Source of the DNA: Dehalococcoidia bacterium
GTDB taxonomy: Bacteria; Chloroflexota; Dehalococcoidia; SHXV01
Assembly (NCBI GenBank): GCA_009693105.1
Contig: SHXV01000009.1
Location: 1 to 40,820, forward strand
Length of the DNA: 40,820 bases
Reading direction: 5' to 3'
The translations under genes were made by a program, and so were the position numbers. The notes below the pieces were generated by a model. The model was given only the letters and a program-made list of their open reading frames with translations, was not told the DNA's origin and did no database searches. Position 1 is the stretch's first letter, and every line of letters begins with the position of its first letter. This document shows positions 7,271 through 40,820 of this stretch, one piece after another.

Positions 7271-8935
7271 CTAGACCTCCACCGCCACCGGCAACACCAT
7301 GGGGCGCCGGTGGGTCTCATCGTGGAGGAAGCGCGCCACCCCATCCTTTACCCTGGTGTTGACCAGCGCCCAGTCCACGGCGTGCCCCTCCCCGGGGAGG
7401 GAGTGGAGTGCCACCTCTCTGGTGCGCTGGAGCAGGTCCTCCGATTCTTCAACATCGACAAAGCCGCGGGACACCACCTCCGGCAGCCCCAGCACCTTGC
7501 CCGTTCGCTTCTCGATGGTCACGATGACGACGACCATGCCGTCCGAGGCCAGGTGCTTGCGGTCGCGCAGCACCAGGCTGTCCACGTCGCCGACACCGAG
7601 GCCGTCCACGTACACGTAGTCGCCGGAGACGTGCCCCTCGATGTACGCTTCCTGGTCGTCGATCTCAAGGACATCCCCATCCTCCAGGACGAAGATGTTC
7701 TGGGGGTCGATACCCATCTGCGTGCCCAGCTGGGCGTGGTGGACCAGGTGCCGGTACTCGCCGTGAATCGGCAGGAAGTAGCGGGGCCGCACCAGGCTCA
7801 GGACGAGCTTGAGCTCCTCCTGTGCGGCGTGGCCGCGCACGTGGACCCCCGGCGCGATCCGGCTGTAGAGCACGCGGGCGCCCATCTTGTACAGGTTATC
7901 GATCACGCGATCGACCAACGCTTCGTTGCCGGGAATGGGGGTGGATGACGTGATCACCGTATCCCCCGGGACGATATCGACGTACTGGTGATCGCGCCGC
8001 GCCATCCGCGCCAGCGCCGACGTCGGCTCACCCTGGCTTCCGGTGCAGATGATGACGAGCTTCTCATGCGGGGTCTTTCGCATCTCATCCGGGCGGAGCA
8101 GCGTTCCGGGCTTGGCGCGGAGGTAGCCCAGCTCCTGCGCCATCTGGGAGTTGTCCATCATGCTGCGGCCGGTGATGAAGACCTTGCGGCCGTGGCGCTC
8201 CGCCGCGTCGATCACCTGCTGCACGCGGGCGATCAGCGAGGCGAACGTGGCGATGATGACCCGCCCCTCCGCGTTTCCGATGATCTGGGCCAGCGCTTCC
8301 CCCACCACCTGCTCGGACGGCGTAAAGCCGCTTACCTCCGCGTAGGTGGAATCGGAGCAGAGTAGCAGGATGCCCTTGTCGCCCTCGGCGGAGAGGCGGG
8401 AGAGGTCGGTGTGCTGGCCCATCACGGGAGTGTGGTCCAGCTTGAAGTCGCCCGTGTGGATAATCGTGCCCAGCGGGGTGCGGATCACCAGGCCCGCGGC
8501 GTCCGGGATGCTGTGGGCTACGCGGAAGAACTCCACCTCAAACACGCCCGCCCGGATCGGCGGCGAGGGTGGCTCCACCACATGCAGGTCCTGCAGCGCG
8601 TCGTTCAGGCGGGCCTCCTTCAGCTTGACGGAGACGAGCCCGTTGGTGAGGCGGGTACAGTAGATGGGCGCCCGCACCTCCCGCAGGAGGTAGGGGAGCG
8701 CGCCGATGTGGTCTTCATGGCCGTGGGTGAGGAATATCCCGCGCAGCCGGTCGGCGCGCTCTCTCAGGTAGGAGATGTCCGGGATGACGAGGTCCACCCC
8801 CAGCATCTCTTCTTCCGGGAACATCAGCCCGGCATCGACCATGATGATGTCGTTGCCGTACTCAATGAGCATGCAATTGCGGCCGATCTCCCCAAGGCCG
8901 CCAAGCGGAATAACGCGAAGTTTAGATTCAGGCAT
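7271..8935 (-). CDS. rnj: Ribonuclease J
   Basis: RNase J is a metallo-beta-lactamase/beta-CASP ribonuclease with 5'-3' exo- and endonuclease activity in RNA decay and rRNA maturation. The 554-residue length is typical. The N-terminal segment LRVIPLGGLGEIGRNCMLIEY and the zinc motif THGHEDHIGALPYLL are diagnostic. HTGDFKLDHTP, the beta-CASP region (ITGRSMMDNSQMAQELGYL, GSQGEP) and HVRGHAAQEEL follow in order. The start has GGAG five bases upstream. The 41-base gap to the uracil-DNA glycosylase gene upstream is AT-rich and could hold a promoter, but no clean pair of boxes is seen. Confidence 0.96.
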   Translation of the reverse strand: MPESKLRVIPLGGLGEIGRNCMLIEYGNDIIMVDAGLMFPEEEMLGVDLVIPDISYLRERADRLRGIFLTHGHEDHIGALPYLLREVRAPIYCTRLTNGLVSVKLKEARLNDALQDLHVVEPPSPPIRAGVFEVEFFRVAHSIPDAAGLVIRTPLGTIIHTGDFKLDHTPVMGQHTDLSRLSAEGDKGILLLCSDSTYAEVSGFTPSEQVVGEALAQIIGNAEGRVIIATFASLIARVQQVIDAAERHGRKVFITGRSMMDNSQMAQELGYLRAKPGTLLRPDEMRKTPHEKLVIICTGSQGEPTSALARMARRDHQYVDIVPGDTVITSSTPIPGNEALVDRVIDNLYKMGARVLYSRIAPGVHVRGHAAQEELKLVLSLVRPRYFLPIHGEYRHLVHHAQLGTQMGIDPQNIFVLEDGDVLEIDDQEAYIEGHVSGDYVYVDGLGVGDVDSLVLRDRKHLASDGMVVVIVTIEKRTGKVLGLPEVVSRGFVDVEESEDLLQRTREVALHSLPGEGHAVDWALVNTRVKDGVARFLHDETHRRPMVLPVAVEV

Positions 8936-38059: not shown

Positions 38060-38088
38060 TTGCGGCTCGCATTAGTGTTATGTAAAAT
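38060..38088 (+). promoter_or_regulatory. Promoter of smpB-ssrA
   Basis: TTGCGG is followed after 17 bases by TAAAAT. The -10 box ends seven bases before the smpB ATG, so transcription should start at or next to the start codon. Confidence 0.65.
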
Positions 38089-38095
38089 AGGAAGC

Positions 38096-38572
38096 ATGGC
38101 GGAAGAGGAAAACTACAAGACAATTGCCCAGAATCGGCGGGCGACGCACGATTACGAGATCAACCAGCGGTGGGAGGCGGGAATCGCCCTCACAGGCACA
38201 GAGATCAAGTCCGTGCGGGAAGGTCGCGTCAACATTCGAGAGGCCTATGCCCGCCCGATCCGGGGGGAACTCTGGCTCATCGGCGCCAACATCGCCGCCT
38301 ACGGCCCGGGCGGCCCCTTCGGCCATGAGCCCAACCGCACCCGCAAGCTCCTGCTCCACAAGAAGGAACTCGCGGAGATCGAACGGGCCATTGGAGAGCG
38401 TGGGCTTACCCTGGTTCCGCTTCGCCTCTACCTCAAGCGAGGTCTGGCAAAGGTGGAGCTGGGCATGGGGCGCGGCCGAAAAGTGTATGATAAGAGACAG
38501 GCCATCGCCAAGCGTGATGCCGACCGCCAGATGCAGCGCGCTGTGCGCCATGCGGCGGACGGCCGGCGCTGA
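38096..38572 (+). CDS. smpB: SsrA-binding protein SmpB
   Basis: SmpB delivers tmRNA to stalled ribosomes. It is 158 residues from ATG 38096 (MAEEENYKTIAQNRRATHDYE); the track start at 38060 lies upstream of the predicted promoter's start. GIALTGTEIKSVREGRVNIREAYARP, HEPNRTRKLLLHKKE and LVPLRLYLKRGLAKVELGMGRGRKVYDKR are the family landmarks in order. The positively charged tail ends MQRAVRHAADGRR. Its partner RNA gene begins 13 bases after the stop. Confidence 0.97.
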   Translation: MAEEENYKTIAQNRRATHDYEINQRWEAGIALTGTEIKSVREGRVNIREAYARPIRGELWLIGANIAAYGPGGPFGHEPNRTRKLLLHKKELAEIERAIGERGLTLVPLRLYLKRGLAKVELGMGRGRKVYDKRQAIAKRDADRQMQRAVRHAADGRR

Positions 38573-38585
38573 CGATGATCTCTAT

Positions 38586-38943
38586 GGGGACGAAGGGGAT
38601 CGACAGGAAGGAGTCGGATTCGGATTGCGGGCCGAGGTTGCCATTACCCTCGTTAATCCTGGTGGCAAAATGTAACTGGCGAACACGAATTCGCCCTCGC
38701 TGCCTAATTAAGTAGCGACATCGCCTCCACCCTCACCCTGACGGGGTGGAAGGCGGTGCAAATTAGTCAGGGTGCGGTTGGCCCCACGCTGCTAAGGCCG
38801 ATCTAAGACCAGTGGCTGGGTCGACCGGGAGCCCGTCGGTGGGCGCCCGGACGACCGAGACCAAAATCGCCGAATACGTCCGTAGCATATCCGAGGCGGT
38901 CCTTGACCTGGACGGGGAGTTCAACTCTCCCCCGTCTCCACCA
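38586..38943 (+). ncRNA. ssrA: Transfer-messenger RNA
   Basis: tmRNA frees stalled ribosomes and tags their products. The 5' end GGGGACG pairs over seven bases with CGTCTCC before a discriminator A and an encoded CCA. A T-arm with GTTCAAC precedes the acceptor strand. A tag reading frame ending in ALAA lies a third of the way in. The 358-base length is normal. It follows smpB by 13 bases and probably shares its transcript; a hairpin terminator lies eight bases past CCA. Confidence 0.95.
38678..38707 (+). other. tmRNA tag-coding frame
   Basis: The resume codon is GGC. The frame reads Gly-Glu-His-Glu-Phe-Ala-Leu-Ala-Ala then TAA, with a second in-register TAG nearby. ALAA is the ClpXP/ClpAP degron end. 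The exact resume codon is inferred from the usual nine- to ten-codon tag length. Confidence 0.75.
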
Positions 38944-38984: not shown

Positions 38985-38995
38985 TGTTTGACCGC

Positions 38996-39148
38996 CTATC
39001 TGACCGCCAATGCGTCAGACGGAGGCGGTCTCAGCATCCGATCCCACGCGTTGGCGGCCTGCTCGTGAGCGGTCGGCAATACGTGCGCGTACACGCGCAG
39101 CGTGGTCGTTATGTCGCTAGGCCCGAGCATTTCTGAGATCGCCTTGAG
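38996..39148 (-). pseudogene. C-terminal remnant of a tyrosine-recombinase integrase
   Basis: The stretch LKAISEMLGPSDITTTLRVYAHVLP matches the last active-site block of phage-type integrases. The Tyr nucleophile (VYAHV) is kept, but the usual LGH His is Pro and the upstream R...HxxR part is absent; sequence before LKAIS is unrelated. It reads toward the 3' end of ssrA and stops 52 bases from it. A short repeat TGACCGCC lies at its end. It is the tail of a decayed element that had used ssrA as its attachment site. Confidence 0.8.
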
Positions 39149-39823: not shown

Positions 39824-39910
39824 GCCCAGCCAACACCGCTGTGCAAGAGCAGATAACTGGACAACATTTCGCTCTGTTCCCACGTCTGTAGCACAGCGCA
39901 TATGGGATAA

Positions 39911-39958
39911 TGCTTCCCAAGCAGAGGGTCGCCGGTTCGAATCCGGTCTCCCGCTCCA
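39911..39958 (+). other. 3' half of tRNA-Gly(CCC), likely attachment-site scar
   Basis: Anticodon loop TTCCCAA, stem strand GCAGA, variable part, T-arm GCCGGTTCGAATCCGGT, acceptor strand CTCCCGC, discriminator T and CCA are all intact. The sequence before it lacks a GCGGGAG acceptor strand, a D-arm and the TCTGC stem strand, so no tRNA can form. Identity to a tRNA begins at the anticodon stem, the usual crossover place for tyrosine integrases. Confidence 0.8.
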
Positions 39959-40073
39959 ATGACCCGCAGATATATAGAGAAGCAGCTCGCCTCAAGTTCC
40001 GGGCCGGCGTCGGGCCCGGCGCTATCCCGATCAGGTGCGGCAGTAGCGCCAGCAGCCGTCACGGCTGGTCTCA

Positions 40074-40820
40074 CTACCTTCCCAGCGTCACGCTCTGCAG
40101 GACGTACCCGTCCGCCGTCCGCTGGAACACGAGGCGATCCGTGCCGACGGTCACCAGAAGTTCGGCGCCACGCACCTCCTGCATCACAAGCGTCCCCTGC
40201 GCGCCGTTGGGCGGCTGCGGGATGAGCGCCGTAGCGAGCGTGAGCTGGCCCAGCGGCTGCTTGCTCACGATGCGCAGCAGGTTTACCGGGCGGATCCAAC
40301 CGCTCGGTGCCTCGATCGATCCGCTTATTTCCGGCGTCTGGGCCGGCACGACGTCGAGTGCCGAGTCGCCCTGCGTGACCGTCCAGCCGCCGCTCGGTCG
40401 ATGGGTAATGCTGCCGTAAGAGTGGAAGCGCAGCTCGATTGAGGCGGTTGAAGCGGGGGCGACATCGTCAAGGAGGACGTAGTAGCGACGGTCCACGAAC
40501 ACGACATGCCGCCGCGCGTGAGGTGTCGGCAGCTCGTAACTTCCATCGGCGACGCCTACGAACGCCGTGAAGTTGGGTCCCTCGAGCGGCCCCTGGAGCG
40601 CGCCCGGACGGTCGAACACCTGCCCCTTGCCACCAACAAGCACCGAGTTGTGACCGGCGGTCGTGATCTCGTAGTACCGAGCGCGCGCCGTGCGTTGGAA
40701 GTAATCAGCGGGATACGGACGGCTGCCCAGATCGACGAGAAGCATGTTGTTGCCCATGCCGACAGTTACATGGTTGAGATCGAGATGCGAATGATTCGCC
40801 GCGAGCGACCCGGACTTGAA
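40074..40820 (-). CDS. Heparinase II/III-like protein (N-terminus cut by window edge)
   Basis: The track lists only the part after an internal Met; the same frame runs to the window edge and begins FKSGSLAANHSHLDLNHVTVG. NHSHLDLNHV is the motif of the heparinase II/III C-terminal domain, with the conserved His that binds metal or substrate. LLVDLGSRPYPADYFQRTARARYYEITTAGHNSVLVGGKGQ follows, then beta-sheet-rich sequence to the stop. Substrate is likely an acidic polysaccharide, inferred from the family. About 249 residues are visible; the rest lies to the right. Confidence 0.85.
   Translation of the reverse strand, partial: FKSGSLAANHSHLDLNHVTVGMGNNMLLVDLGSRPYPADYFQRTARARYYEITTAGHNSVLVGGKGQVFDRPGALQGPLEGPNFTAFVGVADGSYELPTPHARRHVVFVDRRYYVLLDDVAPASTASIELRFHSYGSITHRPSGGWTVTQGDSALDVVPAQTPEISGSIEAPSGWIRPVNLLRIVSKQPLGQLTLATALIPQPPNGAQGTLVMQEVRGAELLVTVGTDRLVFQRTADGYVLQSVTLGR

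Follow-up and report, generated by a model that had tools for sequence, protein, structure and literature searches.

IMEs that carry a tyrosine integrase insert into tRNA genes and accrete to tandem arrays, in which decayed CIMEs are also found (PMC5704250). The ssrA islands of Dehalococcoides rely on a serine recombinase (DsiB), carry a 20-bp repeat of ssrA, and are inserted in the T loop of this gene (PMC3146451). Tycheposons are given a size range of 4 to 200 kb in a second-hand description (PMC10872708). In a literature search that covered few subscription papers, we found no account of the att arm described below or of tRNA-Gly arrays in Chloroflexota.

Here, we analyze a locus from a Dehalococcoidia bacterium (the host, G000) in which ssrA and one half of a tRNA gene lie close together. 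The window, that is, the whole stretch of DNA that was analyzed, comprises 40,820 nucleotides and is the entire contig C35 of the host, whose genome is a metagenome-type draft of 1.23 Mb in 55 contigs, estimated to be 83.6% complete. Much of the comparison concerns another family of the same class, called f2 here, which includes genomes G294, G338, G272, and G153. A preliminary description of this DNA had placed an orphan 3′ half of tRNA-Gly(CCC), ending in CCA and lacking a 5′ half, at 968 bases from ssrA; both its coordinates and this distance are correct, with the 3′ end of ssrA at position 38943. The features of the right end of the window are the following.

38060 to 38572: smpB, located 5′ of ssrA, with an SmpB Pfam match
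38586 to 38943, plus strand: ssrA, an intact tmRNA gene (ARAGORN; Rfam, 152.6 bits)
38988 to 39012, plus strand: TGACCGCC repeats at the ssrA junction (25 bases identical in G343:C10:564-726)
38996 to 39145, minus strand: C-terminal remnant of a tyrosine integrase, 49 residues, facing ssrA and resembling G153:C90
39314 to 39823, plus strand: cargo gene for a protein of 169 aa with a PDDEXK-like motif (PDIDILA ... LQVKT)
39825 to 39924, plus strand: mobile att arm with the core TTCCCAAGCAG at its end, 99% identical to G001:C26:8518-8617
39911 to 39958, plus strand: 3′ half of tRNA-Gly(CCC), identical at 48 of 48 positions to the intact tRNA-Gly(CCC) of G294 and G338
39959 to 39983, plus strand: remains of the tRNA leader/terminator region 3′ of the half, common to G272:C42, where they stand behind that contig's own arm and half
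39990 to 40820 (open reading frame, 40074 to 40757), minus strand: heparinase II/III-like gene segment, cut by the contig end (Pfam PF07940)

The tRNA half and its right flank match another family

The half tRNA, read off the window as TGCTTCCCAAGCAGAGGGTCGCCGGTTCGAATCCGGTCTCCCGCTCCA, contains the TGC of the 5′ anticodon stem, the loop TTCCCAA (39914 to 39920), the T arm, the acceptor strand, and the terminal CCA. Neither ARAGORN nor Rfam calls a tRNA at 39911 to 39958, because the 5′ half is absent. When aligned with the 3′ part of the intact tRNA-Gly(CCC) genes of G294 and G338, the window half is identical at all 48 positions, so it is no chance match, and on the upstream side identity with the intact gene does not extend past the anticodon-stem TGC. 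The orphan half found in G343 and the two found in G272 are likewise identical to it. The call of an orphan half is thereby borne out as an exact 3′ half of this gene.

A different result was obtained for the host's own genes. The intact host tRNA-Gly(GCC), tRNA-Gly(CCC), and tRNA-Gly(TCC) align with the half at 39, 39, and 38 of the 48 positions, respectively. We located 29 tRNA matches in the host and aligned the tRNAs predicted there to the half; none of them exceeded 39 of 48, so the half does not come from any tRNA gene found in the host. By this alignment, a host tRNA-Gly is rejected as its source, and with it the idea that crossover in a tRNA-Gly gene of the host itself left the half behind. 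The search for an intact host tRNA-Gly as the partner that brackets an island, which the preliminary description had proposed, turned up the three genes above, none of which brackets an island with the half by sequence. Since an intact tRNA-Gly of the same allele, as expected at the other border, does not occur in the 83.6% complete host, we read the half as an imported or displaced scar rather than as the border of a resident island.

The DNA to the right of the half is foreign as well. Behind the half, the terminator shared with G272:C42 breaks off inside the window copy at about position 39983. From there, positions 39990 to 40820 are 89.7% identical to G272:C72 (f2) over 831 bases, and the next best relative of the heparinase-like protein among the 393 class genomes reaches 33% identity; between the host family and f2, ssrA itself is 68 to 80% identical. 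The heparinase gene of G272 has no adjoining tRNA half, which makes the tail of the window a mosaic. Judged from sequence, the half, the 100-base arm on its 5′ side, and its right flank each have their match in another family of this class.

A conserved arm adjoins the crossover point

Directly upstream of the presumed crossover lies element-specific sequence that is common to other element ends, as seen both in f2 genomes and in a model search (see below). Within this arm, two boxes, ATAACTGGAC and GCACAGCGC, occupy positions 39853 to 39899 and span 47 bases edge to edge. Over its 100 bases, the window arm is 99% identical to G001:C26:8518-8617 and 93% identical to the arm in G343, and it matches two sites in G186 with 96 to 99% identity over 82 to 95 bases. 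In the f2 elements, both boxes again span 47 bases edge to edge and keep a fixed distance to the anticodon-loop core, and the sequence between them varies. Because of this fixed spacing, we infer that the arm serves as a binding site for the integrase or an accessory protein; it has the look of a protein-bound recombination arm. With up to two mismatches allowed, the two boxes are absent from 60 control loci (175,687 bases, mostly from around other tRNA genes), and the box pattern misses one diverged arm that carries an insertion (L033).

The match to G001:C26 is sharp at both ends, and the gene that adjoins this arm is unrelated to the nuclease-like gene of the window, so the arm is not bound to one cargo gene. 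At this site (8518 to 8617; L066), the arm and its core TTCCCAAGCAG are followed by non-tRNA sequence, perhaps as the result of a secondary-site insertion or a deletion. The host carries a second arm on another contig (G000:C36:151-222; L091), which is 94% identical, has the core GCTATTCCAAATAG, lacks a tRNA half, and stands just 3′ of the stop codon of an unrelated gene. Two other identities of the arm were considered and rejected. An integron attC site did not fit, given a weak hairpin (z = −1.97) and the absence, by eye, of integron core motifs. A viral or plasmid origin fared no better: the arm has no match in IMG/VR, and the matches to one phage and one plasmid (E = 5e-6 each) span only about the tRNA part.

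Tandem arrays of related elements in f2

Related junctions occur in f2 in an ordered context. In G294:C145, G338:C93, G186:C18, and G378:C61, one or two junctions of arm and half, 2 to 8 kb apart, lie behind an intact tRNA-Gly and on its strand, and G338:C93 has an extra half at 54446 with a degenerate arm. A tyrosine integrase of 311 to 333 aa starts about 100 bases after the tRNA or half in G294 and G338, and in G186:C9 a tyrosine integrase stands behind tRNA-Gly(TCC). Related elements thus display an intact tRNA and an integrase at their other end (G294:C145 and G338:C93, with G186:C9 for the tRNA-integrase end), and the tRNA is restored at the integrase end, as seen from the intact genes in G294, G338, G186, and G378. 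The halves in G186 and G378 are the same or nearly the same as their own genome's tRNA. The cargo of the f2 islands includes a Rep_trans protein, two DNA methylases, HicA/HicB, and a type I restriction subunit; element G338_E1 combines the integrase with Rep_trans (PF02486), a homologue of which was recognized by eye in G294_E1. One 1.8-kb unit (G338:C93:52683-54490; L097:10084-11891) holds a tyrosine integrase, a HicA/HicB pair, and little else between two tRNA-Gly halves. The f2 arrays are cases of site-specific accretion, as in IMEs (PMC5704250) and the ssrA islands of Dehalococcoides (PMC3146451).

G001 has seven halves in differing stages of decay with two arm types, and the array on its contig C5 showed no integrase within the section that was read. 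The second arm type, AGTCTCATSATTCCCAAGCAG (G001:C5; L062:8543, L063:7983, and L064:9173), does not have the two boxes and has the same tRNA-Gly half as its target, so this site must be common to two or more families of elements.

Distribution of the arm across the class

We built a sequence model of the arm (R1, 78 positions) and searched 393 class genomes with it at E ≤ 0.001. Matches were obtained in 26 of the 393 genomes, from ten families; the weakest of these matches may be due to chance. Downstream of strong and medium matches, we identified by eye 3′ halves of tRNA-Gly(CCC), tRNA-Gly(TCC), tRNA-Val, and tRNA-Arg and likewise reversed 5′ halves of tRNA-Thr, tRNA-Gly, and tRNA-Val; the arm therefore adjoins a displaced half in either layout. 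Some matches have no recognizable tRNA. The sites with reversed 5′ halves of tRNA-Thr, tRNA-Val, and tRNA-Gly (G084:C18 [L235:7027-8000], G369:C79, G136:C46, and G282:C4) have the mirror layout of the window junction, and in G084 an intact tRNA-Thr(CGT) lies only 0.8 kb from the arm and reversed 5′ half. In the single-contig genome G152, two junctions of the arm with a tRNA-Val(CAC) half (C1:23922 and 28420; L229) stand 4.5 kb apart on the same strand, and an intact tRNA-Val(CAC) is absent from the first 50 kb.

Close relatives of the f2 integrase are present in some carriers (G330, G084, G282, and G164); in others, among them G001, G136, and G015, none were found. Many arm carriers are without a close cognate integrase. 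One speculative possibility, to which we attach limited weight, is that a single modular arm, whose two boxes span 47 bases edge to edge, is common to small elements of many families, with targets that switch among Gly(CCC), Gly(TCC), Val, Arg, and Thr and between 3′- and 5′-half layouts. A common arm-binding factor, possibly acting in trans, may then serve these elements, much like a dispersed cassette system on tRNA genes. What was less expected is how widely the arm occurs in the class, with four or more tRNA identities. Its model finds the borders of small islands with defense and modification genes throughout the class and raises the question of how elements sharing one arm come to use different tRNA genes.

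The ssrA side of the locus

Next to ssrA, the only trace of an integrase in the window is the 49-residue remnant. A longer integrase reading frame that resembles it stands beside ssrA in G153:C90 (f2), with 73% identity at the DNA level. The TGACCGCC repeats at the junction are probably the arm of an ssrA-specific element. In G343:C10:564-726 (L224), where an orphan ssrA 3′ end follows the same repeats, the ssrA element family has left an attR-type scar. Both the integrase remnant and the repeats are thus common to f2 genomes (G153 and G343), in favor of an f2 origin. The cargo protein of 169 aa is 63 to 64% identical to its G153 homologue and has no match in Pfam, PADLOC, or PDB; its PDDEXK-like motif is kept in four homologues, and the gene presumably encodes a restriction-type nuclease, a reading made by eye. 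A second ssrA 3′ end does not occur in the contig at up to three mismatches. A direct repeat of ssrA was considered as the right border and was not found in the window; the far border of the ssrA island may lie beyond the contig end.

Origin of the double scar

In the simplest reading, all of the DNA to the right of ssrA stems from an f2-like donor and is an island that has since decayed. We consider it probable that the half is the distal (attR-type) junction of a small tyrosine-integrase element that came from such a donor, was imported at ssrA, and then decayed. The integrase of the small element would have crossed over in the anticodon loop of tRNA-Gly(CCC), a position supported by the fact that identity starts there in many copies, and the element arm (from about 39825 to the core) would thereby have been joined to the 3′ half displaced from the tRNA-Gly gene of the f2-type donor and not of the host. 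This junction would have formed earlier, in an f2-type genome, with the arm presumably bound by a recombination protein, and would have been carried on an island; a composite or already scarred f2-like island would then have entered the host, with ssrA as the likely entry point, and decayed there. Several observations go against import: the right border of the ssrA island leaves no sign in the window, the host assembly contains no intact element of this kind (its two integrase matches are distant), the half is only 0.9 kb away from the end of its contig in a draft assembly of metagenome type, which leaves room for a chimeric join, and the arm without a half on G000:C36 indicates that arms can persist without their target.

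The main rival is that the right contig end is a chimeric assembly, in which the assembler passed from the host, which has the arm, into an f2 genome that has arm, half, and heparinase gene; the crossing would have occurred inside the arm or half, both nearly identical among populations that live together. In favor of such a join, the arm is 99% identical across families over 100 bases and stands about 1 kb before the contig end, the DNA that follows it shows 90% identity to f2, and the bin is a draft of 55 contigs. However, two regions to the left of the arm, the ssrA-proximal part and the cargo gene, have relatives in f2 as well, and a join at the arm leaves this unexplained; moreover, the heparinase gene of G272 has no adjoining tRNA half, and the other host arm on C36 implies that arms are at home in the host. 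We therefore regard a chimera as unlikely, yet as the alternative to be taken most seriously. A good deal less plausible is a native scar after rearrangement, for which the host would have an f2-type tRNA-Gly(CCC) in the unassembled 16% of its genome and the element would have inserted there. While an assembly completeness of 83.6% leaves room for such a gene, a tRNA-Gly(CCC) of another type is already present in the host along with TCC and GCC, the scar could have reached ssrA only through a further rearrangement, and the right flank resembles f2.

Finally, the perfect preservation of the half, including its CCA, might hint at a function, either in a split tRNA, which the preliminary description had also considered, or as the source of a small RNA. 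We deem this very improbable: the host has intact tRNA-Gly for all three anticodons (GCC, CCC, and TCC), recent import explains the preservation, and comparable halves in G001 are variably decayed. The preliminary description had further weighed the case of an intact tRNA-Gly elsewhere with no island boundary here; intact genes do exist elsewhere, but the arm and the f2 arrays reveal a boundary at this site. Its two main proposals, an integrase crossover in a tRNA-Gly(CCC) gene as the origin of the half and two scars of different kinds, at ssrA and tRNA-Gly, side by side, are supported by our analysis. Taken as a single site, and with respect to mechanism, this is an ordinary attachment scar of a familiar kind; it is of use mainly because it marks gene flow between two families of the class, as well as the import of an island at ssrA.

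Comparison with known systems

The f2 elements resemble the IMEs in tRNA genes (PMC5704250) in that the tRNA gene is restored at one border after insertion, in their tandem arrays, in having members without an integrase, and, for some f2 members, in a Rep_trans protein and toxin-antitoxin cargo. They differ in the host phylum, in the very small size of the f2 units (2 to 8 kb), and in the use of one arm with different tRNA targets. With the ssrA islands of Dehalococcoides (PMC3146451), they share the tandem arrangement, repeats of the target RNA gene at the borders, a conserved motif just outside the repeat, and many units without integration genes, and ssrA is also a target in the window. In contrast to these islands, with their serine recombinase and T-loop insertion, the window remnant and the f2 integrases are of the tyrosine type, and crossover in tRNA-Gly takes place in the anticodon loop. 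Tycheposons, going by a second-hand description (PMC10872708), are likewise islands that are bordered by tRNA genes, encode a tyrosine recombinase, and bring environmental cargo to free-living bacteria. By that description, they range from 4 to 200 kb, whereas the f2 units measure 2 to 8 kb.
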